Source of the DNA: Aquilaria yunnanensis
Lineage: Eukaryota > Streptophyta > Magnoliopsida > Malvales > Thymelaeaceae
Reading direction: 5' to 3'
Length of the DNA: 64,000 nt
Assembly (NCBI GenBank): GCA_039654915.1
Contig: CM077600.1
Coordinates: 44,066,492-44,130,491 of the forward strand
Both the position numbers and the translations under genes were made by a program. The notes under the pieces were generated by a model that did no database searches, was not told the origin of the DNA, and was given only the letters and a program-made list of their open reading frames with translations. This document shows, one piece after another, positions 1 to 50,046 of this stretch; the stretch's first letter is position 1, and each line of letters starts with the position of its first letter.

Positions 1-67
1 GTACAGGAATCATGACCTTGGCTCTCATCTTCCACTGATTTATGTCCAGTAATGGCTTCAATGCCTT

Positions 68-616: not shown

Positions 617-736
617 TGATGAGAGAAGAATTTGAGAGAAGAGGGAAATGAATCAGTTATTGTAGGAGACTGGAATAACCGACTTTAGAAGTCACGGGGT
701 ATCTTATCCGCTGCTTAATCAGAAGGAAGAACACGC

Positions 737-743
737 ATTTATA
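737..743 (-). promoter_or_regulatory. TATA box of cargo ORF B (left unit)
   Basis: On the minus strand CACTATAAATGCG lies 121 bases upstream of the ATG at 616. The same box is at 14682-14688. A weaker ATAAATA is at 13854-13860 before cargo C. Confidence 0.5.
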
Positions 744-905
744 GTGATGAAAAGGGATAACGTGTCGATTACACTTAGGGGAGCATGTACATCTGTCAAA
801 AGAAAATGCAAACTTTTCCAAATATAACAAACTGTATGTACAGTAATTGTGACTGTGGCTCACATCTTCCACTGGCTTTACGTCCAGTAACGGCATTAAC
901 GGCTT

Positions 906-1454
906 CTATGAGTCGAGGATTTGCTTCCCATCCAGTTTTCTTATAAGCTGGCAAACAGGGTCATTTACAGTCAGATTCCCGGGACTGTAACGGTTTCGTT
1001 CTTCATGAAAAATGCTCCATAAACCAAGAATTTCACGTTGCACAGATCCACAAGAATGCGTCTCAAGAGTCAATTGGATATCATCCAATGAGCCCTTACT
1101 CAAGCCATTCTTGATGAACCGTATTTTATCTTCTCGATTATTGGAGATCATTCCTAAAGAACGACACCTAGTCTTACAAGTCCACCTACCACATTTATGG
1201 CAGACTTGTAATCTTTTCGCTCTTCTTTTTCTAGCATAAGAACTTTTGCCAACACCAGGCATGTAAGACGCAAATGTCTCTGGGATTTCACCTGCCAGAC
1301 GAACCTTGGCTTCGATTAACCACCGTACATCTTCAGGTATTCCTTTGTGCATCAGAGCTCTTAATCGTTCACAGCGAACTCGGTAGATCTTTTTGAGGAT
1401 GTTCATTGGGAGAGAAGGGAAATACTTTCGCAAGGCGGAAAAAGTAGGATCCAT
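906..1454 (-). CDS. Cargo ORF A, cysteine/arginine-rich zinc-finger protein (left unit)
   Basis: Paralogue of cargo B, 182 aa and gap-free against it. The basic run at about 70-81 (KSSYARKRRAKR), Cys85/88/93/97 and Cys135 are all kept. The differences are spread out and often conservative (I/L/V, K/R), as in a gene under constraint. It lies 290 bases upstream of B on the same strand, and the leaders of A and B are similar too, so the repeat unit is promoter-leader plus gene. I see no clear TATA box directly upstream of A. Its role is inferred to be nucleic-acid binding. Confidence 0.7.
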   Translation of the reverse strand: MDPTFSALRKYFPSLPMNILKKIYRVRCERLRALMHKGIPEDVRWLIEAKVRLAGEIPETFASYMPGVGKSSYARKRRAKRLQVCHKCGRWTCKTRCRSLGMISNNREDKIRFIKNGLSKGSLDDIQLTLETHSCGSVQREILGLWSIFHEERNRYSPGNLTVNDPVCQLIRKLDGKQILDS

Positions 1455-1559
1455 TTTCTAGGAGGAAGTAAAAGAAAGAAGGGGTGAAGGAATCAGTTAT
1501 TATGGGCAACTGAGAAAACCGACTTGAGAGTTACGGAGTACCGTATCCGCCGTTTAACC

Positions 1560-4364: not shown

Positions 4365-6392
4365 TCAATTACCAATCCCATCGAGCCTAGCAGCTTGACC
4401 TCGGTTTTGTTTGATTTGTAGAGGAATGGCCTCGGGACTTGACGGCTTAAGAGTAGGTTTTGAGATTGGTATAGCATTGACTTCTTGTTCTTTAATGATC
4501 ACATTCACATCATCATCTTTATCTGACATAAAAACGATAAGTTGGGATGAGTCTATGAGTCTTTGCAGATTCTTACGAAATTCTGAGCATTCTTGGATAG
4601 AATGACTCTTACTGTCATGAAAGTTGCACCATTTCTCATCTTCAACTTCTTCATGTCCAAAAGAAGGCTTTCCCATGATAATCCCTTCTTTCACAAGGCA
4701 TGAATATACATGCTTAAGAGGGGTTATGATATCATTGACTGACTTTTTCATCAGCCGGTGTTCTTCTATCATATTGACTGGTTTTTCTTGATGAGGCGGC
4801 AATGGATTGTGAGTGACGTTCGGTTCATCGGAAAAGTCCAACCACTTTGATTCGATTAATTGTTGGACTATACGTTTCAATGCTGTGCAATTTTCCAAGC
4901 CATGGCCTGGAACGCCATCATGATATGGGCAAGTTATGTTAGGGTCATACCACGTTGGATATGGGGGTCCAAATGGATTTGTAGGAATTGGACGGATAAG
5001 TTGACTTTCAATGAGTTTTGGATACAACTCAGTGTAAGTCATGGGAATTGGTGCAAAAACTTCTTTTGGTCTTCGTGTGGGTACTGGAGGAGTCGGAACA
5101 GGTGGCCGTAACTGATTAGGCCTGTTGAGAGGATAATTGTTGGGCCTATTGGGAGGATAATCATTAGGCCTATTGGAAGGATAGTCATTGGGCATATTGG
5201 GAGGATAGTCATTGGGCCTATTGGTAGGATAATAATTGGGCCTTTTGGCAGAATAGGATAGGCGAGGACCGGTAGCCACAGTACCTACGAGGGGAATCCC
5301 TCTTTCGCGTCCTATTTGTTGTACTTCTTCATCTTTTGTTCTGGATGGTCCTCCTCTTTTCATAGGATCACTAAAGGACTCAGCAATCTTCCCAGTCCTA
5401 ATCCCATGCTCGATCCTTTCTCCAGACATGACAACATCGGAGAAATTAGTTGCCGAATTGCCAATGAGTTTGTCATAATATGGGTATTTCAGTGTCTGGA
5501 CAAACAAAGTGACCATTTCTTTTTCTGTCATGGGTGGCTGAACTTGTGCAGTTAAGTCCCTCCACCGTTGGGCATATTCCTTGAATGTTTCTGGCTTTTT
5601 CTTCTCTATGTTTTGGAGAGTTTGGCGATCCGGAGCCAAGTCCATAACGTGTTTATAATTGACGATGAAGGCCTGAGCAAGGTCATTCCAAGTTTTAATG
5701 TTTCTTGGACCTTGACTTAGATACCACTGTAATGCTGATTTTGTGAGGCTTTCCTGAAAAAGTGCAATCCACACCTTTTCATCTTTTGTGAGTGGTTGTA
5801 GTCTCCTTAGAAACAATGTGATGTGAGTGATGGGATCACTCGTTCCATCGTATTTCACGAAATCTGGCACCTTAAAGTCCGAAGGGATTACGACGTCTGG
5901 CACTACGCAGAGGTCATCCACTGAGAGAGATCCGAATATATTACCTCCTTCAATGGCTCGCAGTCTCTTCTCTATTGTTCCGAGTTTTTGAGATTCTCCT
6001 TCTTCCTTTGGTGGTGTCTTCTTCTCTTCATACACAATGTCTTGTTTCAGGTGAACACTAGCAGACTGTCCTAGTTCCTGAAACAGGTTTTCTTGGACTG
6101 AGACTCGTTGCGGAGTGAATCTCGGAGGATAAGTGGGATCTTGTGCTTCTTTGATGGGAACTTGAGTTGCTTTCCCCTTGATTAGTTCCATCAATTGTCT
6201 CATCTGTTCTGCCATACTTTCAATCTTGGACTCCATCTCTATGAGACGTCCTTCGGCTTGTTCTGCCATTAATCTTGTGTGGAGCCGAGTTGGATATCGG
6301 CGTTGAGGTCCAATTTTACCCCTTTTAAAAGTAAGATTTATTTTATTAGACTCTACATGTATGTGATTGATGCAATGAATGCATGCATGCAA
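4365..6392 (-). CDS. Retrotransposon Gag (Tat/Ogre type), left unit
   Basis: Structural protein of the retrotransposon particle. The open frame is 675 codons. The likely start is Met42 (6269), because the 41 residues before it come from the leader. A coiled-coil-prone N-terminus (MEQ-rich, about 42-75) is followed by the retrotransposon gag domain at about 165-330, containing KYDGTSDP, LQWYLSQGP and ETFKEYAQRWRDL. Next comes a Pro/Asn/Tyr-rich linker of repeated NRPNDYPP units at about 390-430. Two zinc knuckles follow: C-x2-H-x5-H-x4-C from residue 488 and C-x2-H-x4-H-x4-C from residue 589. The frame stops after the second knuckle, where Tat/Ogre elements normally continue into protease; nothing like a protease follows. 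No stop or frameshift breaks Gag. Confidence 0.88.
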   Translation of the reverse strand: MHACIHCINHIHVESNKINLTFKRGKIGPQRRYPTRLHTRLMAEQAEGRLIEMESKIESMAEQMRQLMELIKGKATQVPIKEAQDPTYPPRFTPQRVSVQENLFQELGQSASVHLKQDIVYEEKKTPPKEEGESQKLGTIEKRLRAIEGGNIFGSLSVDDLCVVPDVVIPSDFKVPDFVKYDGTSDPITHITLFLRRLQPLTKDEKVWIALFQESLTKSALQWYLSQGPRNIKTWNDLAQAFIVNYKHVMDLAPDRQTLQNIEKKKPETFKEYAQRWRDLTAQVQPPMTEKEMVTLFVQTLKYPYYDKLIGNSATNFSDVVMSGERIEHGIRTGKIAESFSDPMKRGGPSRTKDEEVQQIGRERGIPLVGTVATGPRLSYSAKRPNYYPTNRPNDYPPNMPNDYPSNRPNDYPPNRPNNYPLNRPNQLRPPVPTPPVPTRRPKEVFAPIPMTYTELYPKLIESQLIRPIPTNPFGPPYPTWYDPNITCPYHDGVPGHGLENCTALKRIVQQLIESKWLDFSDEPNVTHNPLPPHQEKPVNMIEEHRLMKKSVNDIITPLKHVYSCLVKEGIIMGKPSFGHEEVEDEKWCNFHDSKSHSIQECSEFRKNLQRLIDSSQLIVFMSDKDDDVNVIIKEQEVNAIPISKPTLKPSSPEAIPLQIKQNRGQAARLDGIGN

Positions 6393-7226
6393 TGTGAGAT
6401 TATGTTTTTATCAGACTTTGTATGCACGTGATTGATGTAATGGATGCATGCAATATAAAGTGAGATTATGTTTTTATCAGACTTTATATGCACGTGATTA
6501 ATGTAATACATGCATGCGATGAGTGAGTTTGCTTATCCATCATCGTAGAACTTCAAAACTTTTAGTTGTCATTATAAAGACCAAAAAGTTAGCATAATTT
6601 GATGCGTGGTTTGATGCATGAAGAATAATTGCACAAGAAAGATAAGGTTATTAATAAGTTAAATAGCAATTAACAACTCATGAAGTATTATGGATAAACA
6701 AGTTAAAACCATACGAAGAAAAGTGTAGAGTAACAACACAGCATAACAAGGATATGCTTATAGCGTTGGTAAAATGGTAGAAATTCTATGGTCAGTTCTA
6801 TGGTTAAGTGGGGAGTTCTATATGCATAGGGTGGTTTATCAAAAAGGCAAGGGATAGTTCCCGAATCCCATCACTAAATTATAGTGACAGCCCGATTCCT
6901 TACCCTCTAGGGTTTATGTAAGGAATGGATTAATTCGAGTCGTAGCTTTTCGTGGGCCCATGCAGAGACTAACCGTCTCAGAAGGCAATACACTACTTTG
7001 CTACTTTGAAACCGGTGAAGGCTTGGAGACCATGGCCTCTCAAGGACAACAACACCAATTCCGCTTAGAAAGAACGTGTTCGCTTTGAAGAAGCTCGGGT
7101 ATAGAGCTTCATATTGTGAATGCATAATGCATGTTTACCTAAGTAAATATAACATATAAATCTACATAAATATAAGCAAAGCAAATCAAAACAAATCAAC
7201 TTGTAGGCTCGACTCACTAACGTCGA
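6393..7226 (-). other. Element leader between primer site and gag (left unit)
   Basis: Untranslated leader of about 0.8 kb. It includes three tandem copies of a ~65-bp unit at about 6349-6530, each with GCATGCATGCA-like (RY-type) and TATGCACGTGATT motifs. A 72-codon frame at 6907-7125 opens MHSQYEALYP; it could be a leader peptide, but I have no evidence it is translated. Confidence 0.55.
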
Positions 7227-7245
7227 GTCCCCAGCGGAGTCGCCA
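7227..7245 (-). other. Primer binding site, tRNA-Arg
   Basis: On the plus strand these 19 bases read as a tRNA 3' end closing in GGAGTCGCCA. The match extends into the T arm (TCGAGTCCCCAGC). From memory of plant tRNAs this is the arginine type whose acceptor starts GACTCCG. Ogre elements are known to prime with tRNA-Arg. It lies five bases inside the LTR. Confidence 0.8.
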
Positions 7246-9439
7246 AGCTATGGCAACGTCGGGTTTTCGGGAGTCGCCACCAATCTGTTTACCTAGGTCG
7301 ATTGGACACCTTAAAATTGGTCTGCGAGAGTTCGGGGATCGGGAGTACAGTTACGCTAAAACAACTTTGTTATAGCGCCCAAAATTGGCACCTTAGTTGA
7401 TTTTAATTTTGTTTTGCTTTGCTTTTAGAAAATATTCAGTTAATTTTCAAACTAGAAATTTTAACTGAATTAATCGGATGTGGATTTTTAAATTAATTTA
7501 TATAAATTTTGATACTTCCGAACCATGGACTCTGCCGAATCATTTGGACACGGAAGATTTAATTCCGAACCATGGACTCTGCCGAGTCACCCGGACACGG
7601 AATTTGATGAAATTTTAAATAAATTAATCCATATCGTAAATATGGATTTTTATCTTTGTATTTATTTAATTTAATTAAAAAGTAGATGTTTTCCAAACCG
7701 TAGATCCTGACGGATCATCCGGATATGGAAATTATGTTAAAAAGGTGAGCCAAAAAATAATTATTTAATCAAAATTTCATTTATTTAATAATGAAACCAA
7801 AAGTTTATGTATATTTCAAAAAAAATAAAAAGAAAAGTCTTAATAATTTATTTGATAAAAGGTGAACCAAAAAAAAAATTATTTAATCAAAGTTTTATTT
7901 AATAAAGGAAACAAAAATTGATATGTATATTTCAAAAATAAAAGAAAAGTTTTAATATTTTATTTGTTTTATTTTGTTTTAATGAAAGATTAACCAAAAG
8001 TAATTATTTAATTAAGAAACCAAAAATTCATATGCATATTTTAAAAATAAATAAAAGTTTTTGATATTTATATATTTTATTTTTTTTGTGTTCTTTTTTA
8101 TTGATAAAAAAATTTTCTAATTTATAAGTCTAAAAATACATCTAATTAATAAGTCTAAAATATTTAAAAAAATTTAATTCTTTTTTTCTTGTTTATTTTT
8201 ATTACCTTTATTTGAAATTATTTGGGTAAAATTTTATTTTGTTTAATAAAGGAAACAAAAAGTTATATCTTTTTATTATTTTGAAAGAAATAAGTAAAAT
8301 ATTACTGGATAAAGAGATAAGTAAAATATTAGTCCAAAGTTTTTTATTATTTTTATTCTTTTTAATAATAAAGAAACTAAAAAGTTATATTTTTATTATT
8401 TTAAAAGAAATAAATAAAATATCACTGGGTAAAGAAATAAGTAAAATATTAGCCCAAAGTTTTTTTATTCTTTTATTCTTTTTAAATAATAAAGAAACTT
8501 TATTTATATATTTTATTTAAAAAAATATTTTAAATTATTTAAAAAAAATTTATATACTTTATTTTTAAAAAATATTTTTCAAGCCATGGATCCTGGCAGA
8601 TCATTTGGACATGGAATTTAATTTTTATTAAATGTTATTTTTTAATTATTTAATTAATTATTAATTTTAATCATAATTTTTATTATTATTTTTTCTTTAT
8701 TTTTTTTTAAATATCATTAATTTTAAATATATGTTTAAAAAGAATTGATTTGTATATTTTTGGAATTATTTAATTATGTTTATTTATTAATTTTTACAAA
8801 AGGAATAAAAAGTTAACTTTTTGTTATCTTTAAAGAAATAATAAAAGAAACATGTATTCCAAAAATAATAAAAGATAATTGTTTTTTTTTTTAAAAAATG
8901 ATATTTATTAGCCTTAATAATTATTCACATAAAATTCTTTTTGTTTTGTTTTTATTTTTTATTAAAAGTGGAATAAATTTAACCACAAAAAAAAATAATT
9001 AATAATAACAAAGTGGGGCTTTTTGGCCATCCACTTTAATAACACAATAATAATAACAACAATAATAAAAGTTAACAAAGTTAGTAAAGTTAGATGTTAA
9101 TAACAATAAAAATAAAAGTTAGTAATGTTAGTTGAGTTAATTGTTAACAATAATAACAACAATAATAATAAAAGTTAGCAAAGTTAGTAAGTTAGTTGTT
9201 AGTAACAATAAAAATAAAATAAAAATAAAAGTTAGTAAAGTTAGATTAGCTGTTAATAACAACAATAAAAAAAGGTTAGTAATAATAACAATAATAAACA
9301 AATAAATAAACAAGTAAAAATTAAAAGAGTTGATAATTAATTCTGTAAGATCAAAATAAAAGGTTAGTGACCAAAGTGAAAGAAATTGAAAAGATGAAGG
9401 ATTAAATGAGAGTTTACCCTTTTGAAAACAAATTTTGAA

Positions 9440-9745
9440 TTCTGTTGTCACAGAACGACGCGGAACGCGGGGGGAAAAAAAACAACGGTGAACGGGGCTG
9501 GACACGGCGGCAAAGGCGTGGCGGCGAGGCGGCGTGGGGCGGCGGGGCAAAGGGCGGAGGGGTGACGGCGACGTGGGACGGCGGGAGCGGTGAGATCGAC
9601 GGCGGCGGCAAAAGCAAAGAAACGTGGAGCGGTTGCATCGGCGATGGGGAGCAACGGCGACGGCGGAAAGAGCGACGGCGACGGCGGGGGAGCGACCGAT
9701 GGCCGCGTGACGGCGACGGCGGGCGTGGCTAGGCCGGACGACGGC
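9440..9745. other. CpG-dense island inside the LTR
   Basis: About 300 bases rich in GGCGACGGCG-type motifs lie in an otherwise very AT-rich LTR, downstream of the TATA box on the minus strand. Long frames exist here in several registers, but their translations are low-complexity Gly/Arg/Ala/Pro runs, so I do not call genes. A counterpart lies at 23389-23694, and a diverged one at 27725-28015. Confidence 0.7.
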
Positions 9746-9960
9746 GGCAGAGGAGAGAAAAAAAACGGTGAACTGAGAAAGTGAGAGAAAACCGAAATAT
9801 TGGGGACGGGGGTTAAAACGTGAAAACAGAAAAGTTTTGGTCTTCTGGGAAGAGGGAGGAGAGGCTAGGAACTAAGGCTGTGATTTTCCCTTTTTTTTAA
9901 ACGGAGCTCTAAGCTTTCTCTCTATTTTTTTTCTGTGTTCAGCACTAAATTTGGAGGCCT

Positions 9961-9967
9961 ATTTATA
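9961..9967 (-). promoter_or_regulatory. LTR TATA box
   Basis: On the minus strand the sequence is CTCTATAAATAGGCCTCC. It sits about 500 bases from the LTR's upstream end and has counterparts at 23910-23916, 28219-28225 and 31785-31791. Transcription would run leftward through the GC-rich block and into the internal region. Confidence 0.7.
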
Positions 9968-10468
9968 GAGGAAGTTTGGCTGAACTGTTGATGAATAAAT
10001 TAATAAAAAATTTCAAACTTATCTTTTAAATTGGTAAAATGACAATTTCAGTCCTTTACGTTTCTCACGCTCTGGATAAGCTTCAGAAGCTTCTGATTTT
10101 GACAATTTTGTCGTTTTCTGTTAATTTGGGCCAGAAACGTCCGTTTAGGCCCAAAATTGACGCAAAAAATTGCCCAAAGCTCCTGGAACTTTCAGAATTT
10201 GTCAATTTTGCCCGAAACTTCTCAATTTTGTCATTTTTATCTCAAACTTTTTAATTTTGTCATTTTTATGGAGTTTTCTTTTTTTCTTTCAAACATACAC
10301 ATATACACACATATATCAAATCTTCACAAAACAAAACAAAAAATGTATTTTAAATTAATTAAAAAAATTTTAGTAATAATAATAACAATAATAATAATAA
10401 TACATTTTTTTTAATTAATTTTTTTTATTTAATTTTTTTTAATGGCCGGACGAAATTGGGTGTCAACA

Positions 10469-10483
10469 GCTGCCCCCCTTTGC
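10469..10483 (-). other. Polypurine tract
   Basis: Read on the minus strand, AAAGGGGGGCAGC directly precedes the LTR start TGTTGACACC. The same tract stands at 28723-28737 in the second family member. Confidence 0.8.
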
Positions 10484-10554: not shown

Positions 10555-11690
10555 TTCTCGCCACCTAAATTGTAAGGTTAAGGAATCCTCCTTAGAACCT
10601 CGGCGATAGGAGGAGTCCTACCGTTGAAAGAAAATTGATTGTTTTCGAGGCAAAGGTTCCATCCTTAAAACCCCGATGATAGGAGCAGTCCTACCGTTGA
10701 ATGAAAATTGATTAATTTCGAGGCAAATGTTCCATCCTTAAAACCTCGACGATAGGAGCAGTCCTACCGTTGAAGGAAAATTGATTGAATGAAAATTGAT
10801 TGATTTCGAGGCAAAGGTTCCATCCTTAAAACCCCGACGATAGGAGCAGTCCTACCGTTGAAGGAAAATTGATTGTTTTCGAGGCAAAGGTTCCATCCTT
10901 AAAACCCCAGCGGTAGGAGCAATCCTACCGTTGATTGATTTCGAGGCAAAGGTTCCATCCTTAAAACCTCGGAGATAGGAGCAGTCCTACCGTTGAAGGA
11001 AAATTGATTGTTTTCGAGGCAAAGGTTCCGTCCTTAAAACCCCGACGATAGGAGCAGTCCTACCGTTGATTGTTTTCGAGACAAAGGTTCCATCCTTAAA
11101 ATCTCGACGATGAAAATTGATTGTTTTCGAGGCAAAGGTTCCATCCTTAAAACCCCGATGATAGGAGCAGTCCTACCGTTGATTGTTTTCGAGACAAATG
11201 TTCCATCCTTAAAATCCCGACGATAGCAGCAGTCCTACCGTTGATTGTTTTCGAGACAAAGGTTTCATCCTTAAAATCCCGACGATGAAAATTGATTATT
11301 TTCAAGGCAAAGGTTCCATCCTTAAAACCCCGATGATGAAAATTGATTGTTTTCGAGGCAAAGGTTCCATCATTAAAACCCCGATGATGAAAATTGATTC
11401 TTTTCGAGGCAAAGGTTCCATCCTTAAAACCCCGATGATGAAGATTGATTGTTTTCGAGGCAAAGGTTCCATCCTTAAAACCCCGATGATGAAGATTGAT
11501 TGTTTTCGAGGCAAAGGTTCCATCCTTAAAACCCCAATGATGAAGATTGATTGTTTTCGAGGCAAAGGTTCCATCCTTAAAACCCCGATTGATTGTTTTC
11601 GAGGTAAAGGTTCCATCCTTAAAACCCCGATGATGAAAATTGATTTTGAGGCTAAGGAGCTTTCCTTAGGACCTCGAGCGAAATTTATAT
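10555..11690 (-). repeat. 3' minisatellite of the complete element
   Basis: About 16 degenerate units of roughly 50-85 bp, each with GAGGCAAAGGTTCCATCC and ending CGATAGGAGCAGTCCTACCG or a deleted version. The last motif is an inverted repeat able to form a hairpin. Toward 11640 the units shorten to ~53 bp and lose the hairpin. Long frames crossing the array are repeat artefacts. Tandem repeats near the 3' end are known for Tat/Ogre elements. Confidence 0.8.
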
Positions 11691-12190: not shown

Positions 12191-12820
12191 TTATGGGAGT
12201 GAACTGGTCGGGAAAGACTGTCGTGTCCAGTCTATCTGGATCATCGCTGGATCTGGTTCAGGAACAAAAGCTTGCATTTTATCTAGCAATTCTTCAGCAG
12301 TTGTTGCGGATATTATGATTCGTCGTGCTACTCTTGATATGAAATTCTTCTGCATAGCATAATCCACAAAAGCTATCAGACCTGTAAAGAAATTGTTAAC
12401 ATTCAACAGCCCAATGGGTTTCTTATGCAAATTAAGTTGGGCCATGGAAGCAATTTGAAAGACTTCTCCCAATGTGCCAAAACCACCTGGTAGAGCGATA
12501 AAAGCATCAGCATTTAAAAGCATTTGTAACACACGCTCTTGCAAATTTTTAACCACTAATTCTTCTCCAATCGTGCCCCCAGAAACAAATTTCAAAGGTC
12601 CAGGGATGATGCCCAAAACTTGACTTCCTCCTAAAGATGCTGCTGATGCTACACCTCCCATTAATCCGACACTACCTCCTCCATAAACTAAATGCATTTT
12701 TCGCTCAGCTAATACTCTACCCAAATGGTTGGCTGCCTTTAAATACTCTCCATCTTTTCCAGGAAAAGCCCTAGAAAATACACAAATACTTCAGGATTTA
12801 CGAGTTGGGGTTTTCTCCAT
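12191..12820 (-). pseudogene. LOG: LOG-type cytokinin-activating enzyme, intronless cargo with one early stop
   Basis: LOG enzymes release active cytokinin base from its riboside 5'-monophosphate in the cytosol or nucleus. From the ATG at 12820 the frame spans 209 residues plus stop, the normal LOG length, interrupted only by TGA at codon 10 (12793-12791). The nucleotide-binding GGGSVGLMGG starts at about codon 47 and the signature PGGFGTLGE at 111-119, so the PGGxGTxxE motif and its Glu are kept. Host LOG genes have several introns and this copy has none, which points to capture through an RNA. It sits after cargo C in the same orientation. The single N-terminal stop means either recent inactivation, an upstream exon spliced at TTTTCTAG near 12776, or an internal start. 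The relative at 31443-31473 keeps only its last codons. Confidence 0.82.
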
Positions 12821-12852
12821 TCCTATCCTTATCCTTGTGAGAAAAGAGGATA

Positions 12853-12904: not shown

Positions 12905-13240
12905 ACATTATTGCCAGCTATTCACAGTAGTCACGGGTATGACTCTGGTCAGGTATGGGTACACTATCGTTAAAAGATGAGGAAATTTTTCAAAATAGCT
13001 GCTAGCATGTACAGTAGTCACTACTGTAGCTTACGTCAGGGGTAGGTATGTGATTGTTGGAAGAGAAGGAAAATTTTAAAAGTGGTAGCTATATACAGTA
13101 GTCATAACTGTATCTCATGTCAGGAGTGGGTACATTATTGGGAGGATAATTTCAAAAGCGACAGCTAGCATGTACAGTAATCATGACTTTGGTCCACGTC
13201 TTCCACTGATTTTGCATCCAGTAACGGCTTCAATGCCTTC
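12905..13240 (-). repeat. Four degenerate 79-87 bp repeats upstream of LOG
   Basis: TACAGTAGTCAC-like cores recur at 12923, 13010, 13094 and 13173, with periods of 87, 84 and 79 bases. The same block occurs once before cargo C (about 13946) and once before cargo B (about 14781, and 836 in the left unit). On the minus strand one copy reads CTGACGTAAGC (13038-13029), like the TGACG element bound by plant TGA/bZIP factors. It is probably a shared regulatory module of the cargo genes. Confidence 0.5.
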
Positions 13241-13788
13241 TATGAATCGGCGATTTGCATCCCATCCAGTTTTCTCACAAACTGGCAAACTGGGTCGTTT
13301 AAAGTCAGATTCCCAAGACTATAACGATCTCGTTCTTTTTGGAGAATTATCCATAATCCAACAATCTCAAATTGCACTATTCCGCAAGAATGCGCTTCAA
13401 GAACCTCTCGAATATCTTCTAGAGATTCCTTACGCAAGCCATTCTTAATGAATCTTATTCTATCACTACGATTTCTGGTGATCACTCCTGGAGAACGACA
13501 TTTATTGCCGCAAATCCACCATCCACAATTATGACAAACGCCTAGCCTCTTTGCTCTTCTTTTTTTGGCATAAGCGCTTTTACCAAAGCCGGGCATACGG
13601 GGAAAGAACGCTTCTGGAACTTCACCAGCTGAACGAACCTTAACTTCGATTAGCCACCGCACATTATCAGGAATGCCTTTGTGCATAAATACTCTGAATC
13701 GTTCACATCTAGCTTAAAAAATCTTTTTAAGAACATTTATTGGGAAGGAAGGAAAATACTTTCGTAGGGCGGAAAGAGAAGACTCCAT
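13240..13788 (-). pseudogene. Cargo ORF C, third tandem copy with an early stop
   Basis: The full 183-codon span aligns without gaps to cargo A and B from an ATG at 13788. Codon 25 (13716-13714) is TAA where A has Arg and B has Leu. Downstream, the frame from Met38 to the end is open, with the basic stretch at 70-81 and all four finger cysteines at 85, 88, 93 and 97. A product starting at the internal Met would keep the finger and lose the N-terminal helix region, so loss of function is probable but not certain. It lies 225 bases downstream of B'. Its left-unit counterpart lies outside the window. Confidence 0.7.
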
Positions 13789-14012
13789 TGATGAAGGAGG
13801 TATTTAAGAGAAGAAAGAAATTAGTGATTGTAGGAAACGGAAATAACTAACACATATTTATGGTGATGAAAGGGATAATGCGTTAATTACACTTACAGAA
13901 GCAAGTACATTATTGTCAAAAGAAAATACAAATGACAGCTTATATGTACAGGAATCATGACCTTGGCTCTCATCTTCCACTGATTTATGTCCAGTAATGG
14001 CTTCAATGCCTT

Positions 14013-14561
14013 CTATAAGTCGGAGATTTGCTTCCCATCCAGTTTTCTTACAAATTGACAAACAGGGTCGTTTAAAGTCACATTCCCAAGACTGTAACGG
14101 TTTCGTTCTTTATGGTAAGTCCTCCATAAACCGATAATTTCACCTTGCACTTTTCCACAAGAATGCGTTTCAAGAGTCTCTTGGATATCTTCCAGAGATT
14201 CCTTACGCAGGCCATTCTTAATGAATTTTCTTTTATCTTCACGATTTATGGAGATGTATCCTAAAGAGCGACATTTAGTATTACAATTCCATCGCCCACA
14301 TTTATAACACACGCCTAGTCTCTTTGCTCTTCGCCTTTTGGCATAACGGCTTTTACCTAAACCGGGCATGCGGGGTATAAATGCATCTGGAACTTCACCC
14401 GCCAAACAGACCTTAGCTTCAATTATCCACTGCATATTATCGGGAATGCCTTTGCGTGTAAAAACTCTGATTCTTTCACATCTAGCAAGGTAGATCTTTT
14501 TAAGGACTTTTATTGGAAGGGAAGGAAAGTATTTTCGCAGTGCAGAAATAGTAGAATCCAT
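14013..14561 (-). CDS. Cargo ORF B' (complete element)
   Basis: Identical in protein to 68-616 (182 aa). Basic stretch at 70-81 and Cys4 finger at 85-97. It is the middle of three tandem cargo genes, 290 bases from A' and 225 bases from C. Likely nucleic-acid-binding; a virus-like silencing-suppressor role is inference only. Confidence 0.7.
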   Translation of the reverse strand: MDSTISALRKYFPSLPIKVLKKIYLARCERIRVFTRKGIPDNMQWIIEAKVCLAGEVPDAFIPRMPGLGKSRYAKRRRAKRLGVCYKCGRWNCNTKCRSLGYISINREDKRKFIKNGLRKESLEDIQETLETHSCGKVQGEIIGLWRTYHKERNRYSLGNVTLNDPVCQFVRKLDGKQISDL

Positions 14562-14681
14562 TGATGAGAGAAGAATTTGAGAGAAGAGGGAAATGAATCA
14601 GTTATTGTAGGAGACTGGAATAACCGACTTTAGAAGTCACGGGGTATCTTATCCGCTGCTTAATCAGAAGGAAGAACACGC

Positions 14682-14688
14682 ATTTATA
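14682..14688 (-). promoter_or_regulatory. TATA box of cargo ORF B'
   Basis: CACTATAAATGCG on the minus strand, 121 bases before the ATG at 14561. Its presence in the intergenic spacer suggests the cargo genes have their own promoters rather than being read only from the LTR. Confidence 0.5.
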
Positions 14689-14850
14689 GTGATGAAAAGG
14701 GATAACGTGTCGATTACACTTAGGGGAGCATGTACATCTGTCAAAAGAAAATGCAAACTTTTCCAAATATAACAAACTGTATGTACAGTAATTGTGACTG
14801 TGGCTCACATCTTCCACTGGCTTTACGTCCAGTAACGGCATTAACGGCTT

Positions 14851-15399
14851 CTATGAGTCGAGGATTTGCTTCCCATCCAGTTTTCTTATAAGCTGGCAAA
14901 CAGGGTCATTTACAGTCAGATTCCCGGGACTGTAACGGTTTCGTTCTTCATGAAAAATGCTCCATAAACCAAGAATTTCACGTTGCACAGATCCACAAGA
15001 ATGCGTCTCAAGAGTCAATTGGATATCATCCAATGAGCCCTTACTCAAGCCATTCTTGATGAACCGTATTTTATCTTCTCGATTATTGGAGATCATTCCT
15101 AAAGAACGACACCTAGTCTTACAAGTCCACCTACCACATTTATGGCAGACTTGTAATCTTTTCGCTCTTCTTTTTCTAGCATAAGAACTTTTGCCAACAC
15201 CAGGCATGTAAGACGCAAATGTCTCTGGGATTTCACCTGCCAGACGAACCTTGGCTTCGATTAACCACCGTACATCTTCAGGTATTCCTTTGTGCATCAG
15301 AGCTCTTAATCGTTCACAGCGAACTCGGTAGATCTTTTTGAGGATGTTCATTGGGAGAGAAGGGAAATACTTTCGCAAGGCGGAAAAAGTAGGATCCAT
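14851..15399 (-). CDS. Cargo ORF A' (complete element)
   Basis: Identical in protein to 906-1454. It is the first cargo gene in transcription order, about 2.9 kb downstream of gag and separated from it by the non-coding stretch. Finger and basic stretch are intact. Confidence 0.7.
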   Translation of the reverse strand: MDPTFSALRKYFPSLPMNILKKIYRVRCERLRALMHKGIPEDVRWLIEAKVRLAGEIPETFASYMPGVGKSSYARKRRAKRLQVCHKCGRWTCKTRCRSLGMISNNREDKIRFIKNGLSKGSLDDIQLTLETHSCGSVQREILGLWSIFHEERNRYSPGNLTVNDPVCQLIRKLDGKQILDS

Positions 15400-15504
15400 T
15401 TTCTAGGAGGAAGTAAAAGAAAGAAGGGGTGAAGGAATCAGTTATTATGGGCAACTGAGAAAACCGACTTGAGAGTTACGGAGTACCGTATCCGCCGTTT
15501 AACC

Positions 15505-18312
15505 GGAAAAGTGGATCCTACTTTATTTTGGTATCATAGATATTTCTTATCTTTGATGTCTCATCAGGCATGACATTGATCCAGTCCTTGATTATTGAAT
15601 CCATTGTCTGCTTTCGACGACAATATTTCTCGATATCCGCGTTTATCTTTGACCATAGCTATTTCTTATCTTGGATACCGCTAAGCTGGCGTCAATTCTG
15701 TCCATCCAGGTGTAGCCTCGATTATTGAATCGATTGCCAGGCTTTTGACATATTGTCTACCTTATCCTTGAATTCCTGATGCGGGTTGGTCCCGCATATT
15801 AGCTGTGTATCCAGTGATAGATTGGTAAGAGCTGATGACATTGAGATCTCAGCTTATACTGCTGAAACTGTGCCGTGGATGTGCTTCCCATTTGGTTCCT
15901 ATTATGCAAAAGTCATGCATGTATGATGTGAAATGCATGAATGCAGAGCATGTGGAATTGATGTTTTTTTTTTTTTTTTTTATGGATCTAGTTCTTCATG
16001 TCTTTGCTTTACTGGATCTTCTTTATGATTGCCTTCTTAGACTATCATTGAATCTCTTTATGCTTTCCAGCTTTTGTTCACTGCCTCAAAAGCCCAACTC
16101 TTTTCAAAATCCTCTTTCTTTGACTTGTTCTTGAATTTTGGCCTCAATTTCTTTAAAGTTGGCCCGCCTCATAATTTATATCTCTTTCGGGTACTCATCC
16201 ATTGTCATGGATTTGATACCATCAAAGGCTTTACTTTCAATGTCTGCTTTGCCCCTTTTCTTGTGACCGTGCCGACACTTACTTATTCCCATGTTATAAT
16301 CTGAATGATTGCTCTTCCTTGAACTCATGTTTTGATCCATAAGACTTGCCCCCTTGTCTATTGAACTTCTTTGTTGGCAGTACTCCTCTTACACTTCGTA
16401 GAGACTACTTTGCCCCCTGAATATGGTATTTATGTGGATAAAAGGTATCACCTCGCCTTTAACAGAAGGTCGAGCATTTCTAGACCTTTGTGATGGCACT
16501 TGATCGTAAATTTCTCTTACAAGAACCACATCTTATTAAAGAAAGACTCAAGCTATCTCCTCACTTTTAAGTCTACATACATTAATGAATAATGGTTTGG
16601 CCTTAAAGAAAAACTTTCATCAATTTGCAAGGCTTGACAAAGTAATTTACGGTCTTTGTTTTTAATTAAAATATCCTGCCGTTCTTCCCTTTCCAACTCG
16701 AAGACATAAACTGTGCAAGGCAATAAGGTAGAAACATGATTCACAATAATAGCCTTTTAACTGAATGAGGATGATATCGAGAGGTAAATGTTAGGTGTGA
16801 GGAAAGTTAAGTTTGAATGTTTTTTTTTTGTGGCAGTCTTTTAGCTGAATGAGAATGATATTAAGAGGTAAATATTAGGTCTGAGTAAAGTTAAGTTTCA
16901 GTGGTGTGAAAGAAGGGTCTTTTAATACTACTCGTGAGCATATCTGATTACGGTGAAAAATTCAATAGTGAAGACCTCAAACTTACCACCTTTTTCAGAA
17001 AGTTAGACCTCATCTGTTGCCCCCCAACTATCGTAATCTTTATGTACACTTGGTTTGAGGGTTGCTTTTGTCTTCTAGACCGCCTTTACAGGTTTTCAGT
17101 CTAGAATCCATAGCTCACTTTTTTTCTTTTGCTCTAGTTTGAGCCCTTTTTCCTTTCTTTTTTTTTTGTTTCATTTTTTTTTGTTTCCCTTTTTTTTTTT
17201 GTGAGCTATGGTGATGACATACTTGATAACTCTCTTGAAGTGAGATGACTCAAGTGGCCTTGCTTGCTCGTGCTTGTTCTCAGTCCTTTTTGGTTTTGAA
17301 TTTTCCCTTGTTGTCTTTTGATGGAAGGGATGAATTTCTCTTTTCGGAGTTTGTGTTGCAAAGAACTGAGATCATAGCCCTCTTGAAGTGAAATGATTCA
17401 AGTGGCCTTAGTTGCTTGTGTTTGCTCTCAGTCTCTTTTTTTTGTTTTGGATTTTCCCTTTAATGGCTTTTGATGGAAGGGATGAACTTCTTTCCTTTGT
17501 TGGAATTTGTGTTGTGGAAAACTGAGAATTTTTTTTTTTGTATTGAGCATTTGTGAGAATTGGGAGGCCACTGAAGTCATTTAATATGAGAGCTAACTTC
17601 TTTGGAAGCTAATCCCGGACTTCTTGCAAGGATGTTGATAACCACTGTGAATTTTTTTTTTAAGAGTTGGGGTGCAACATATGAAATCATTCTTGCTAGA
17701 TTTAGTAGTACTTTCAAGATCACCACTATCAAATCTCCCTTAACTTTTTATTTTCACCCACGAGTAGTATCATTTAGAAAGCAAAGTATGATGGCAATAA
17801 TAGTTTGTGCAATGGCAAAGATTGAGAGATAGAGGTAAAAATGAAATTTTTGGTAAAAAGTGGTAGAATGTGTAGGTGTAATAATTGAATTTTTGGTAAA
17901 AATTGGTAGAATGTGTAGATGTAATAATGGAATTAAAAAGTGGTAGAATGCACACATAACATCTTTTTGTTGGAGAACAAAAAGAATTACCGGTTGTCAA
18001 AAAATAAAGTGTGATGACAATAATGGATAGTATAATGGCAAAGAGTGTAAAAATGGAAAGTAGTAGAATGCACGCATTAGATCTTTTTGTTGTACCAGAA
18101 AGAATACCAGGTGTCCATCTAACAAAGACTACACCCTAGATTCTGGATTAAATCTAGGAGATTTTTACTATTAGATTACTTTTGCAAGCTTTCAAAGATA
18201 CAAGTTTATTCAAAGGATTCCCTGTCATTTGAAAATGTATGCGGATTGTTAGGTCAGATCTGACTTGGAGCCCTTCCAAAATCAATGTAATTCCAGCTCA
18301 AAATCTTTACTT
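15505..18312 (-). other. Non-coding internal stretch where pol would be expected (complete element)
   Basis: Same content as 1560-4364, with slightly longer homopolymers, for example a T run at about 15965. I see no protein-coding signal. Confidence 0.6.
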
Positions 18313-20340
18313 TCAATTACCAATCCCATCGAGCCTAGCAGCTTGACCTCGGTTTTGTTTGATTTGTAGAGGAATGGCCTCGGGACTTGACGGCTTAAGA
18401 GTAGGTTTTGAGATTGGTATAGCATTGACTTCTTGTTCTTTAATGATCACATTCACATCATCATCTTTATCTGACATAAAAACGATAAGTTGGGATGAGT
18501 CTATGAGTCTTTGCAGATTCTTACGAAATTCTGAGCATTCTTGGATAGAATGACTCTTACTGTCATGAAAGTTGCACCATTTCTCATCTTCAACTTCTTC
18601 ATGTCCAAAAGAAGGCTTTCCCATGATAATCCCTTCTTTCACAAGGCATGAATATACATGCTTAAGAGGGGTTATGATATCATTGACTGACTTTTTCATC
18701 AGCCGGTGTTCTTCTATCATATTGACTGGTTTTTCTTGATGAGGCGGCAATGGATTGTGAGTGACGTTCGGTTCATCGGAAAAGTCCAACCACTTTGATT
18801 CGATTAATTGTTGGACTATACGTTTCAATGCTGTGCAATTTTCCAAGCCATGGCCTGGAACGCCATCATGATATGGGCAAGTTATGTTAGGGTCATACCA
18901 CGTTGGATATGGGGGTCCAAATGGATTTGTAGGAATTGGACGGATAAGTTGACTTTCAATGAGTTTTGGATACAACTCAGTGTAAGTCATGGGAATTGGT
19001 GCAAAAACTTCTTTTGGTCTTCGTGTGGGTACTGGAGGAGTCGGAACAGGTGGCCGTAACTGATTAGGCCTGTTGAGAGGATAATTGTTGGGCCTATTGG
19101 GAGGATAATCATTAGGCCTATTGGAAGGATAGTCATTGGGCATATTGGGAGGATAGTCATTGGGCCTATTGGTAGGATAATAATTGGGCCTTTTGGCAGA
19201 ATAGGATAGGCGAGGACCGGTAGCCACAGTACCTACGAGGGGAATCCCTCTTTCGCGTCCTATTTGTTGTACTTCTTCATCTTTTGTTCTGGATGGTCCT
19301 CCTCTTTTCATAGGATCACTAAAGGACTCAGCAATCTTCCCAGTCCTAATCCCATGCTCGATCCTTTCTCCAGACATGACAACATCGGAGAAATTAGTTG
19401 CCGAATTGCCAATGAGTTTGTCATAATATGGGTATTTCAGTGTCTGGACAAACAAAGTGACCATTTCTTTTTCTGTCATGGGTGGCTGAACTTGTGCAGT
19501 TAAGTCCCTCCACCGTTGGGCATATTCCTTGAATGTTTCTGGCTTTTTCTTCTCTATGTTTTGGAGAGTTTGGCGATCCGGAGCCAAGTCCATAACGTGT
19601 TTATAATTGACGATGAAGGCCTGAGCAAGGTCATTCCAAGTTTTAATGTTTCTTGGACCTTGACTTAGATACCACTGTAATGCTGATTTTGTGAGGCTTT
19701 CCTGAAAAAGTGCAATCCACACCTTTTCATCTTTTGTGAGTGGTTGTAGTCTCCTTAGAAACAATGTGATGTGAGTGATGGGATCACTCGTTCCATCGTA
19801 TTTCACGAAATCTGGCACCTTAAAGTCCGAAGGGATTACGACGTCTGGCACTACGCAGAGGTCATCCACTGAGAGAGATCCGAATATATTACCTCCTTCA
19901 ATGGCTCGCAGTCTCTTCTCTATTGTTCCGAGTTTTTGAGATTCTCCTTCTTCCTTTGGTGGTGTCTTCTTCTCTTCATACACAATGTCTTGTTTCAGGT
20001 GAACACTAGCAGACTGTCCTAGTTCCTGAAACAGGTTTTCTTGGACTGAGACTCGTTGCGGAGTGAATCTCGGAGGATAAGTGGGATCTTGTGCTTCTTT
20101 GATGGGAACTTGAGTTGCTTTCCCCTTGATTAGTTCCATCAATTGTCTCATCTGTTCTGCCATACTTTCAATCTTGGACTCCATCTCTATGAGACGTCCT
20201 TCGGCTTGTTCTGCCATTAATCTTGTGTGGAGCCGAGTTGGATATCGGCGTTGAGGTCCAATTTTACCCCTTTTAAAAGTAAGATTTATTTTATTAGACT
20301 CTACATGTATGTGATTGATGCAATGAATGCATGCATGCAA
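18313..20340 (-). CDS. Retrotransposon Gag (Tat/Ogre type), complete element
   Basis: The protein is identical to that of 4365-6392: 675 codons, likely start at Met42 (20217), gag domain, NRPNDYPP-type repeats and two knuckles at residues 488 and 589. It lies about 0.85 kb downstream of the primer site. Gag could package its own RNA, but reverse transcription and integration must come from a helper element, since no pol ORF is seen between this gene and the 3' LTR. Confidence 0.88.
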   Translation of the reverse strand: MHACIHCINHIHVESNKINLTFKRGKIGPQRRYPTRLHTRLMAEQAEGRLIEMESKIESMAEQMRQLMELIKGKATQVPIKEAQDPTYPPRFTPQRVSVQENLFQELGQSASVHLKQDIVYEEKKTPPKEEGESQKLGTIEKRLRAIEGGNIFGSLSVDDLCVVPDVVIPSDFKVPDFVKYDGTSDPITHITLFLRRLQPLTKDEKVWIALFQESLTKSALQWYLSQGPRNIKTWNDLAQAFIVNYKHVMDLAPDRQTLQNIEKKKPETFKEYAQRWRDLTAQVQPPMTEKEMVTLFVQTLKYPYYDKLIGNSATNFSDVVMSGERIEHGIRTGKIAESFSDPMKRGGPSRTKDEEVQQIGRERGIPLVGTVATGPRLSYSAKRPNYYPTNRPNDYPPNMPNDYPSNRPNDYPPNRPNNYPLNRPNQLRPPVPTPPVPTRRPKEVFAPIPMTYTELYPKLIESQLIRPIPTNPFGPPYPTWYDPNITCPYHDGVPGHGLENCTALKRIVQQLIESKWLDFSDEPNVTHNPLPPHQEKPVNMIEEHRLMKKSVNDIITPLKHVYSCLVKEGIIMGKPSFGHEEVEDEKWCNFHDSKSHSIQECSEFRKNLQRLIDSSQLIVFMSDKDDDVNVIIKEQEVNAIPISKPTLKPSSPEAIPLQIKQNRGQAARLDGIGN

Positions 20341-21174: not shown

Positions 21175-21193
21175 GTCCCCAGCGGAGTCGCCA
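21175..21193 (-). other. Primer binding site, tRNA-Arg (complete element)
   Basis: Same 19-base tRNA-Arg 3' end as at 7227-7245, five bases inside the 5' LTR. It fixes the minus-strand orientation of the complete element. Confidence 0.8.
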
Positions 21194-23388
21194 AGCTATG
21201 GCAACGTCGGGTTTTCGGGAGTCGCCACCAATCTGTTTACCTAGGTCGATTGGACACCTTAAAATTGGTCTGCGAGAGTTCGGGGATCGGGAGTACAGTT
21301 ACGCTAAAACAACTTTGTTATAGCGCCCAAAATTGGCACCTTAGTTGATTTTAATTTTGTTTTGCTTTGCTTTTAGAAAATATTCAGTTAATTTTCAAAC
21401 TAGAAATTTTAACTGAATTAATCGGATGTGGATTTTTAAATTAATTTATATAAATTTTGATACTTCCGAACCATGGACTCTGCCGAATCATTTGGACACG
21501 GAAGATTTAATTCCGAACCATGGACTCTGCCGAGTCACCCGGACACGGAATTTGATGAAATTTTAAATAAATTAATCCATATCGTAAATATGGATTTTTA
21601 TCTTTGTATTTATTTAATTTAATTAAAAAGTAGATGTTTTCCAAACCGTAGATCCTGACGGATCATCCGGATATGGAAATTATGTTAAAAAGGTGAGCCA
21701 AAAAATAATTATTTAATCAAAATTTCATTTATTTAATAATGAAACCAAAAGTTTATGTATATTTCAAAAAAAATAAAAAGAAAAGTCTTAATAATTTATT
21801 TGATAAAAGGTGAACCAAAAAAAAAAATTATTTAATCAAAGTTTTATTTAATAAAGGAAACAAAAATTGATATGTATATTTCAAAAATAAAAGAAAAGTT
21901 TTAATATTTTATTTGTTTTATTTTGTTTTAATGAAAGATTAACCAAAAGTAATTATTTAATTAAGAAACCAAAAATTCATATGCATATTTTAAAAATAAA
22001 TAAAAGTTTTTGATATTTATATATTTTATTTTTTTTGTGTTCTTTTTTATTGATAAAAAAATTTTCTAATTTATAAGTCTAAAAATACATCTAATTAATA
22101 AGTCTAAAATATTTAAAAAAATTTAATTCTTTTTTTCTTGTTTATTTTTATTACCTTTATTTGAAATTATTTGGGTAAAATTTTATTTTGTTTAATAAAG
22201 GAAACAAAAAGTTATATCTTTTTATTATTTTGAAAGAAATAAGTAAAATATTACTGGATAAAGAGATAAGTAAAATATTAGTCCAAAGTTTTTTATTATT
22301 TTTATTCTTTTTAATAATAAAGAAACTAAAAAGTTATATTTTTATTATTTTAAAAGAAATAAATAAAATATCACTGGGTAAAGAAATAAGTAAAATATTA
22401 GCCCAAAGTTTTTTTATTCTTTTATTCTTTTTAAATAATAAAGAAACTTTATTTATATATTTTATTTAAAAAAATATTTTAAATTATTTAAAAAAAATTT
22501 ATATACTTTATTTTTAAAAAATATTTTTCAAGCCATGGATCCTGACAGATCATTTGGACATGGAATTTAATTTTTATTAAATGTTATTTTTTAATTATTT
22601 AATTAATTATTAATTTTAATCATAATTTTTATTATTATTTTTTCTTTATTTTTTTTTAAATATCATTAATTTTAAATATATGTTTAAAAAGAATTGATTT
22701 GTATATTTTTGGAATTATTTAATTATGTTTATTTATTAATTTTTACAAAAGGAATAAAAAGTTAACTTTTTGTTATCTTTAAAGAAATAATAAAAGAAAC
22801 ATGTATTCCAAAAATAATAAAAGATAATTGTTTTTTTTTAAAAAAAATGATATTTATTAGCCTTAATAATTATTCACATAAAATTCTTTTTGTTTTGTTT
22901 TTATTTTTTATTAAAAGTGGAATAAATTTAACCACAAAAAAAAATAATTAATAATAACAAAGTGGGGCTTTTTGGCCATCCACTTTAATAACACAATAAT
23001 AATAACAACAATAATAAAAGTTAACAAAGTTAGTAAAGTTAGATGTTAATAACAATAAAAATAAAAGTTAGTAATGTTAGTTGAGTTAATTGTTAACAAT
23101 AATAACAACAATAATAATAAAAGTTAGCAAAGTTAGTAAGTTAGTTGTTAGTAACAATAAAAATAAAATAAAAATAAAAGTTAGTAAAGTTAGATTAGCT
23201 GTTAATAACAACAATAAAAAAAGGTTAGTAATAATAACAATAATAAACAAATAAATAAACAAGTAAAAATTAAAAGAGTTGATAATTAATTCTGTAAGAT
23301 CAAAATAAAAGGTTAGTGACCAAAGTGAAAGAAATTGAAAAGATGAAGGATTAAATGAGAGTTTACCCTTTTGAAAACAAATTTTGAA

Positions 23389-23694
23389 TTCTGTTGTCAC
23401 AGAACGACGCGGAACGCGGGGGGAAAAAAAACAACGGTGAACGGGGCTGGACACGGCGGCAAAGGCGTGGCGGCGAGGCGGCGTGGGGCGGCGGGGCAAA
23501 GGGCGGAGGGGTGACGGCGACGTGGGACGGCGGGAGCGGTGAGATCGACGGCGGCGGCAAAAGCAAAGAAACGTGGAGCGGTTGCATCGGCGATGGGGAG
23601 CAACGGCGACGGCGGAAAGAGCGACGGCGACGGCGGGGGAGCGACCGATGGCCGCGTGACGGCGACGGCGGGCGTGGCTAGGCCGGACGACGGC
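23389..23694. other. CpG-dense island inside the 5' LTR
   Basis: Identical by eye to 9440-9745. It would be transcribed as part of the R/U5 leader. Confidence 0.7.
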
Positions 23695-23909
23695 GGCAGA
23701 GGAGAGAAAAAAAACGGTGAACTGAGAAAGTGAGAGAAAACCGAAATATTGGGGACGGGGGTTAAAACGTGAAAACAGAAAAGTTTTGGTCTTCTGGGAA
23801 GAGGGAGGAGAGGCTAGGAACTAAGGCTGTGATTTTCCCTTTTTTTTAAACGGAGCTCTAAGCTTTCTCTCTATTTTTTTTCTGTGTTCAGCACTAAATT
23901 TGGAGGCCT

Positions 23910-23916
23910 ATTTATA
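23910..23916 (-). promoter_or_regulatory. 5' LTR TATA box
   Basis: Same TATAAATAGG box as at 9961-9967. This is the likely promoter of the genomic RNA of the complete element. Confidence 0.7.
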
Positions 23917-24417
23917 GAGGAAGTTTGGCTGAACTGTTGATGGATAAATTAATAAAAAATTTCAAACTTATCTTTTAAATTGGTAAAATGACAATTTCAG
24001 TCCTTTACGTTTCTCACGCTCTGGATAAGCTTCAGAAGCTTCTGATTTTGACAATTTTGTCGTTTTCTGTTAATTTGGGCCAGAAACGTCCGTTTAGGCC
24101 CAAAATTGACGCAAAAAATTGCCCAAAGCTCCTGGAACTTTCAGAATTTGTCAATTTTGCCCGAAACTTCTCAATTTTGTCATTTTTATCTCAAACTTTT
24201 TAATTTTGTCATTTTTATGGAGTTTTCTTTTTTTCTTTCAAACATACACATATACACACATATATCAAATCTTCACAAAACAAAACAAAAAATGTATTTT
24301 AAATTAATTAAAAAAATTTTAGTAATAATAATAACAATAATAATAATAATACATTTTTTTTAATTAATTTTTTTTATTTAATTTTTTTTAATGGCCGGAC
24401 CAAATTGGGTGTCAACA

Positions 24418-28722: not shown

Positions 28723-28839
28723 GCTGCCCCCCTTTGCATGCTTCATGGGAATTGATGTATGCAAAGTCGTTACGAAATTTCGTCCGGCTTAGCTAGGCAT
28801 TGAAAACTTTCTCGCCGCATAAATCCTGAGGTTAAGGAA

Positions 28840-30930: not shown

Positions 30931-30934
30931 GAAC

Positions 30935-47885: not shown

Positions 47886-48060
47886 GAGGTCAATGCTGAG
47901 ACTTGATGCTTCTTTGTCACTGTAACTCCTTGAAAAGATTAAAGCAGGCTGAATATCTTTGTGTTGTTTTTTTATTTTTTGTGGTTATAGCTAGATTTTT
48001 TTTGCTTGTCTTTGGATGTGACATCCCATACAATTGCGTTGGGTTTTTGGTTGTAGCTGC

Positions 48061-48675: not shown

Positions 48676-48749
<74 letters not shown>

Positions 48750-50045: not shown

Positions 50046-50046
50046 G

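Follow-up and report, generated by a model that had tools for sequence, protein, structure and literature searches.

The retrotransposon and its extra genes

We analyzed a stretch of 64,000 nucleotides from Aquilaria yunnanensis (contig CM077600.1, positions 44,066,492 to 44,130,491), called the window here. The minus strand from 24417 to 7249 is a long terminal repeat (LTR) retrotransposon of the Ty3/gypsy type, with 3.2-kb LTRs and a gag open reading frame (ORF). Downstream of gag lie three same-strand paralogues, A, B and C, whose products match viral nucleic-acid-binding proteins (NABPs), followed by a LOG-type gene. The features of this element are as follows.

21197..24417, minus strand: LTR1 (5′ LTR), starting with TGTTGACACC
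21175..21193, minus strand: primer-binding-site-like sequence after LTR1, TGGCGACTCCGCTGGGGAC, identified by likeness to a primer site
18313..20340, minus strand: gag, a 675-aa ORF when read from TTG, with the first ATG near 20217; it matches Pfam Retrotrans_gag at 8.1e-12
15400..15510, minus strand: gene A leader; that of the NABP gene on contig L001 (see below) is homologous
15399-13240, minus strand: tandem array of NABP genes A, B and C
14851..15399, minus strand: NABP gene A, intact, 182 aa (Carla_C4 2.2e-6, Viral_NABP 2.4e-6)
14013..14561, minus strand: NABP gene B, intact, 182 aa (Viral_NABP 1.6e-8, Carla_C4 1.2e-4)
13240..13788, minus strand: NABP gene C, paralogue of A and B, spanning 183 codons, of which codon 25 is an in-frame stop
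12862, minus strand: TATA box of the LOG gene, by motif match
12191..12822, minus strand: LOG-type gene after the NABP array (Lysine_decarbox 8.7e-31, TIGR00730 1.3e-35)
10586..11645, minus strand: tandem repeat array of ~51- to 88-bp units, with LOG on one side and the polypurine tract on the other
10469..10481, minus strand: polypurine-tract-like sequence adjoining LTR2, AAAGGGGGGCAGC
7249..10468, minus strand: LTR2, common to two tandem units (see below)

Over 3,218 columns, the two LTRs share 99.81% identity. The LTR starts and the sequences resembling a primer site and a polypurine tract are present, in agreement with the first-pass annotation of this DNA, which had described an element bounded by these features. 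No pol ORF was recognized in the ~2.9 kb separating gag from the NABP genes in the window copy.

The first-pass annotation had also reported three 182-codon ORFs in one orientation. Three copies do lie on the same strand, but only A and B are intact; the leftover ORF of gene C encodes 148 aa (13686-13240) and matches Viral_NABP at 1.2e-6. A is 70.2% identical to B over 181 residues and 67.6% identical to C over 182 (tblastn). As noticed in the first pass, a basic stretch leads into a Cys4 finger in each of the three. The finger has the spacing C-x2-C-x4-C-x3-C, which is found in 188 of 227 relatives.

By family profile, the LOG gene is of the cytokinin-activating type: PF03641 matched at 8.7e-31 and TIGR00730 scored above its cut-off. 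Against the CtkRMPhLog equivalog model it scored 85.6 bits, well below the cut-off of 300. PGGxGTxxE is the LOG motif. The window ORF has it, as do 13 of 20 genomic LOG matches and 109 of 120 relatives among the matches listed. LOG ORFs of at least 197 aa were found in nine of the 20 genomic matches.

Similarity to flexivirus nucleic-acid-binding proteins

The first-pass annotation had proposed that these Cys4 proteins are related to flexivirus NABPs and had suggested a Carla_C4 search as a check. The ORFs of A, B and C all score above the curated cut-offs of both Viral_NABP (PF05515) and Carla_C4 (PF01623), with a best E-value of 1.6e-8. The absence of any profile match, together with a clear single-copy host gene family, had been named as what would speak against the proposal; profile matches were found. 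At E <= 0.01, 44 of 46 aligned members match PF05515, and likewise 44 of 46 match PF01623. Judged by these profile scores, the NABP genes are homologous to the flexivirus nucleic-acid-binding (cysteine-rich) proteins.

The Pfam match spans only about residues 33-121 and not the whole protein. A 37-residue piece comprising the basic stretch and the C4 finger matches by itself (for the piece from A, only Carla_C4 passes its cut-off), and residues 1-67 and 97-182 alone gave no profile match at E <= 1. The viral resemblance thus rests mainly on a module of ~37 residues. This centring of the match is what convergence would predict, if the profiles responded to every C4 finger that has a basic stretch next to it. 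As a control, we prepared eight shuffled sequences with every C, K, R and M kept in place and two fully shuffled sequences. None of the ten reached the cut-off: the best score was 12.1 bits against the required 23. We therefore consider convergence quite improbable.

The flexivirus NABPs or cysteine-rich proteins (CRPs) of carla-, allexi- and mandariviruses share with the proteins described here a basic arm leading into a C4 finger, and the profile scores lie above the curated cut-offs. In contrast, the genes in the window are encoded by an LTR retrotransposon in two to four paralogous copies, and the N- and C-terminal thirds of their products have no viral match. The C4 finger of carlaviruses has a longer spacing than C-x2-C-x4-C-x3-C.

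Structure prediction was a further check suggested in the first pass. Two AlphaFold models were poor, with predicted local distance difference test (pLDDT) scores of 63.9 and 67.1 and predicted template modelling (pTM) scores of 0.29 and 0.34, and a PDB fold search with a low-confidence model returned no match. In the BFVD fold search, also with a low-confidence model, 18 of the 19 best matches were alpha- or betaflexivirus proteins judged by their names, mainly NABPs or "RNA silencing suppressors", but none was significant (best E 0.03; template modelling score to the query at most 0.24). A PDB sequence search gave weak homeodomain matches alone (E 0.19 and 0.57). Two pattern scans of viral contigs gave pattern matches with no relative among them, and no virus-named protein was present among the 120 listed of 662 relatives from the profile search.

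The gene may have been captured from a flexivirus. In that case, reverse transcription would have placed an NABP gene or a subgenomic RNA in an ancestral retroelement, where it was lengthened at both ends and then amplified. We give this origin a little less than an even chance. The significant profile matches are to viral families only. Moreover, cucumber is reported to contain an endogenous betaflexivirus-like replicase sequence for which a retroelement reverse transcriptase was proposed as the route (PMC3136472). Against capture, only the finger module looks viral, yet conservation within the family extends over 182 residues.

Copies in the source genome

The source genome comprises 842 Mb in 345 contigs. 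A PF05515 profile search of it gave 7,051 candidates; the 150 that were scored all passed the cut-off, and six of these have a stop within the matched stretch. None of 14 control genomes contained a PF05515 match. As a genome signature we used 32 bases from the 3′ end of the NABP gene, allowing at most two mismatches. This signature matched 6,691 times, and the reversed control did not match. Therefore, if most arrays hold three genes, there are roughly 2,000 arrays.

We then sampled 19 contexts, taking every fourth match from ranks 1-73 of the 150. All 19 contain tandem NABP genes (three copies in 15, four in two and two in two), and LOG lies downstream in 18. Upstream of the array, gag was found in seven contexts, integrase in six and neither within the stretch in six; all are in the same orientation. 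In two of the sampled stretches, L021 and L024, pol ORFs that run off the stretch encode two RNase H domains (RT_RNaseH and RVT_3) and an integrase upstream of the array. For comparison of copies, we assembled a set of 78 from 27 loci, which includes the window and L001; two duplicates were dropped. In this set, 39 of the 78 NABP copies are ORFs of 175-200 aa.

The NABP genes thus belong to the regular content of a retrotransposon family and are not private to the window copy. The earlier picture of an array inside a retrotransposon holds, but it lacked the LOG partner, the second tandem unit and the pol-bearing relatives. The array is beyond chance: Pfam cut-offs are passed where shuffled sequences fail, A compared with B or C shows a third-codon-position excess, and the copies number in the thousands.

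Divergence and constraint

A tree of intact ORFs sorts the NABP genes into classes by their position in the array. First genes group with L001 (support 100/99) and third genes group together (100/98); the grouping of second genes is weak (87/71). Among relatives from other sources, P0002 stands beside A (92% identity, 100/94) and P0001 beside C (88%, 100/98). Therefore, at least the A/C duplication predates the splits from those sources.

The ratio of nonsynonymous to synonymous substitution rates (dN/dS) was below 1 in all comparisons: 0.28 for A-B, 0.25 for A-C, 0.32 for B-C and 0.20-0.30 against L001. Pooled values within the first, second and third classes were 0.28, 0.59 and 0.38, and those between classes were 0.29-0.37. 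Because intact ORFs were used, with the exception of gene C, these values are biased low.

The 3′ part of the genes is unusual. Between A and B, synonymous changes were found at 37 of 85 shared degenerate codons in codons 1-130 as compared with four of 37 after them (p 0.0003). Synonymous conservation of the last ~55 codons was also observed for A-L001 (p 0.007), for B-L001 (p 0.003) and in the class comparison. In the 60 nt past the stop, L001 is 83% identical to A, as compared with 74% for the coding part, 72% identical to C and 48% identical to B (ungapped). The region L001:2160-2410 and the last third of the window NABP genes plus ~60 nt are thus unusually conserved across different sources. 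A conserved RNA structure at this 3′ region was not supported: z-scores were -0.04 and -1.58 (on 60 of 76 sequences), and two of 60 predicted pairs were changed on both sides. Leader hairpins gave z-scores from -0.8 to -1.4. Readthrough of the stop into the open frame past TAG was considered and dropped, because B shifts frame.

Relatives from other sources

Of 165 candidates from a protein search, 127 were relatives, and of 982 from a profile search, 662 were; each search listed 120. Plants named among the matches listed are Xanthoceras, Acer, Rhamnella, Orobanche, Parasponia, Populus and Striga. In P0073 (Rhamnella) and P0105 (Orobanche), the NABP is fused to further sequence, for which Pfam reports the NABP alone; the extra piece of P0073 is presumably the C-terminal part of an integrase and that of P0105 protease-like. 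P0086 (Rhamnella) has NABP sequence followed by LOG. The precomputed Pfam table gives Carla_C4 and Lysine_decarbox for this protein, and our scan at E <= 0.01 found the LOG part alone.

The contig L001 (DAIEQH010000041.1) contains an integrase ORF (rve 2.3e-16). A single NABP ORF of like orientation follows it after 192 nt, and both the leader and the 3′ flank of this ORF can be aligned to their counterparts in the window. This contig is filed under a Candidatus Nomurabacteria metagenome-assembled genome (MAG) and carries plant retrotransposon genes; it is probably plant contamination in the bacterial record. A polypyrimidine-CAG stretch near L001 1653-1668 resembles, by eye, a splice acceptor.

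NABP-LOG linkage was also observed elsewhere. Among 107 NABP and 50 LOG rows, seven exact coincidences of equal-size contigs with a shared source were found, and 400 other offsets gave a mean of 1.0 and a maximum of 6. One row, P0217, was added after its match had been noticed; without it the count is six, which equals the control maximum. For contigs longer than 1,600 bases, there were five coincidences (four without P0217) and at most two at other offsets. The Orobanche LOG proteins P0298 and P0336 have 328 and 244 cluster members, and many LOG copies were seen in Reevesia. These sequence records suggest that elements have mass-amplified LOG in other plants.

The transfer may instead have run the other way, flexiviruses acquiring an old module from a retroelement or plant. 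The element family is diverse and widespread in eudicots (by the named matches listed), and the protein it encodes has greater length and uniformity. No recognizable non-element host gene was present among the matches listed (120 per list, sources mostly unnamed), which speaks against this direction, and we regard it as rather unlikely.

Expression signals

TATAAAT within 160 nt upstream was found for 0 of 26 first genes, 22 of 25 middle genes and 25 of 26 last genes, with a background of 538 in 5,200. A stricter TATA-type motif precedes 18 of 20 LOG genes (background 410 in 5,200). All these counts come from copies of one family with shared ancestry and are not independent evidence. The TATAAAT motif was chosen after inspection of the window. 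Neither a test on the window alone nor the strict motif detected the boxes ahead of the second and third genes; the simpler TATAAAT detects them.

These boxes bear on what the proteins may do. A nucleocapsid-like RNA chaperone or an export factor for element RNA, rather than a silencing suppressor or transcription regulator, could be expected from a basic C4 protein encoded by an element, and gag-only members might profit from such a trans-acting factor. A regulatory role accords better with the presence of several paralogues, each with its own TATA box after the first, and of a hormone gene linked to them, and we find the chaperone explanation doubtful.

Other features of the window

The internal region of a second unit lies at 1..7248. 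Positions 1-10468 equal 13946-24417 at 99.9% identity. The stretch L029 shows that the third NABP gene, LOG and polypurine tract/LTR start of this unit are located immediately beyond the left edge of the window. Thus, window 1-24417 and L029 together form two near-identical units with one LTR in common (LTR-internal-LTR-internal, with the polypurine tract/LTR start further left). The pair may have arisen as after unequal recombination or in a very recent event; alternatively, it may be an assembly artefact.

A second, rearranged element was also found. The remaining features are as follows.

1..7248, minus strand: internal region of the second tandem unit, with gag, NABP A (1454-909) and NABP B (616-74)
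26254..32284, minus strand: second, rearranged element, with CCATC at both flanks
32284-31661, minus strand: LTR fragment, part of the rearranged element
31470-30887, minus strand: LOG 3′ end and downstream sequence, 92% identical over 585 columns to the main element
28827-30936, minus strand: tandem array with units of 71-80 bp, with the LOG tail on one side and the polypurine tract on the other
From 28720, minus strand: LTR of the 26254..32284 element, after the polypurine tract

The LTRs of this element match those of the main element in parts, with 82% and 73% identity in the two longest pieces. Because the second element retains of LOG only the 3′ end with what lies downstream, while its LTRs match only in parts, the LOG end is common to two clearly different family members. 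At 31440-31661 there is a rearranged junction, where an inverted LTR-end stretch adjoins the LOG tail. The LOG-to-polypurine-tract arrays of the two elements have diverged in unit and length. Direct repeats of 85-90% identity within 44895-55354 (44895-46413/52231-53753 and 46701-47573/54491-55354) suggest further elements, as does an ORF with a zinc-knuckle-like stretch at 56468-57148.

Discussion

We propose that the extra genes of the window element form an accessory cassette typical of a highly abundant Tat/Ogre-like Ty3/gypsy family, in which gag or gag-pol is followed by two to four sense NABP paralogues and then LOG, ahead of the 3′ LTR. We consider this explanation likely; the cassette would be expressed, and the NABP products would act in the nucleus. 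The gypsy assignment follows from Retrotrans_gag in the window and from the RNase H-integrase order in the relatives L021 and L024. We have in part assumed the lineage name Tat/Ogre. A second RNase H domain is a Tat trait (PMC9289625), and RT_RNaseH together with RVT_3 was found in both relatives.

Several observations weigh against this proposal. The window copy is partly broken, with the stop in gene C and another in LOG near its start, and 39 of the 78 copies are broken or fail the length rule. L001 reaches only one of the two Pfam cut-offs (for Carla_C4 it has 20.4 bits against the required 20.9), and P0105 and P0073 are below that of Viral_NABP. The second-gene class appears weakly constrained, its dN/dS of 0.59 being not far from neutral. 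The low bias of the dN/dS values, the common descent of the TATA boxes, the poor models and the empty PDB fold search point the same way. The broken copies and the interrupted window LOG would also fit passive cargo, that is, transduced genes multiplied without use. However, dN/dS is 0.25-0.32 among A, B and C and 0.20-0.30 against L001, the same three positional classes recur from element to element, and similar LOG-NABP linkage is found elsewhere. Passive cargo is thus very improbable.

To our knowledge, the extra ORFs of plant retrotransposons mostly have no known domains or functions. LOG (YgdH) in gypsy elements of Citrus and Populus was already published (PMC9289625, which cites Steinbauerova et al. 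2011). Those elements likewise carry a LOG-type extra gene within Ty3/gypsy. In contrast, LOG follows an NABP array here, and the frequent extra domains given in the relevant section of that paper include no NABP. Two other known cases are TRP28 of Retand, an antisense extra ORF of a Tat-type element (PMC11963269), and AlkB of orchids, a single enzyme gene in an Ogre-related lineage (PMC9289625). Both are conserved, probably nucleic-acid-related accessory genes in the interval from pol to the 3′ LTR, whereas the present family has an array in sense orientation together with a hormone gene. In plant gypsy elements, an env-like third ORF is in sense and downstream of pol, as is the NABP gene in L001 (PMC7264820; PMC1142308); the protein described here, however, is a soluble-looking zinc-finger protein with a viral NABP match. 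In the open-access papers searched, we found no report of a virus-type NABP gene in retrotransposons; subscription papers lay largely outside this search. Thus, LOG in gypsy elements is known, and a virus-type gene array beside it is apparently new.

The proposed cassette might work as follows. The first NABP gene would be expressed from LTR-driven RNA, and the later NABP genes and LOG from internal promoters. By analogy with the viral proteins, the NABP product would enter the nucleus, bind nucleic acid through its basic arm and finger, and shift transcription or silencing to the advantage of the element. LOG would raise active cytokinin locally, so that cells keep dividing and insertions become heritable. 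The pol-less window copy would depend on pol-bearing relatives. Viral CRPs suppress silencing in several viruses, localize to the nucleus and act like transcription factors, and a carlavirus CRP is a transcription factor that causes hyperplasia (PMC12172455). An anti-silencing role of the NABP proteins would be an analogy from these relatives.

A bolder version is a two-part host-manipulation cassette, in which specialized nuclear zinc-finger proteins, some with their own promoters, and a cytokinin enzyme together blunt silencing, hold a meristem-like dividing state and give access to the germ line. We consider this version unlikely. If it were true, the cassette would be comparable to the accessory genes and oncogenes of animal retroviruses.

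The family ties flexivirus NABPs to retroelements. It carries an extra gene from a family with a viral branch, in thousands of copies, half of those examined intact, beside a hormone gene. Because the viral branch is well studied, intact copies exist and a hormone gene is the neighbour, the role of accessory genes in plant retrotransposons becomes directly testable. With about half of its examined copies intact, this abundant family is well suited to studying how transposable elements deal with their hosts.

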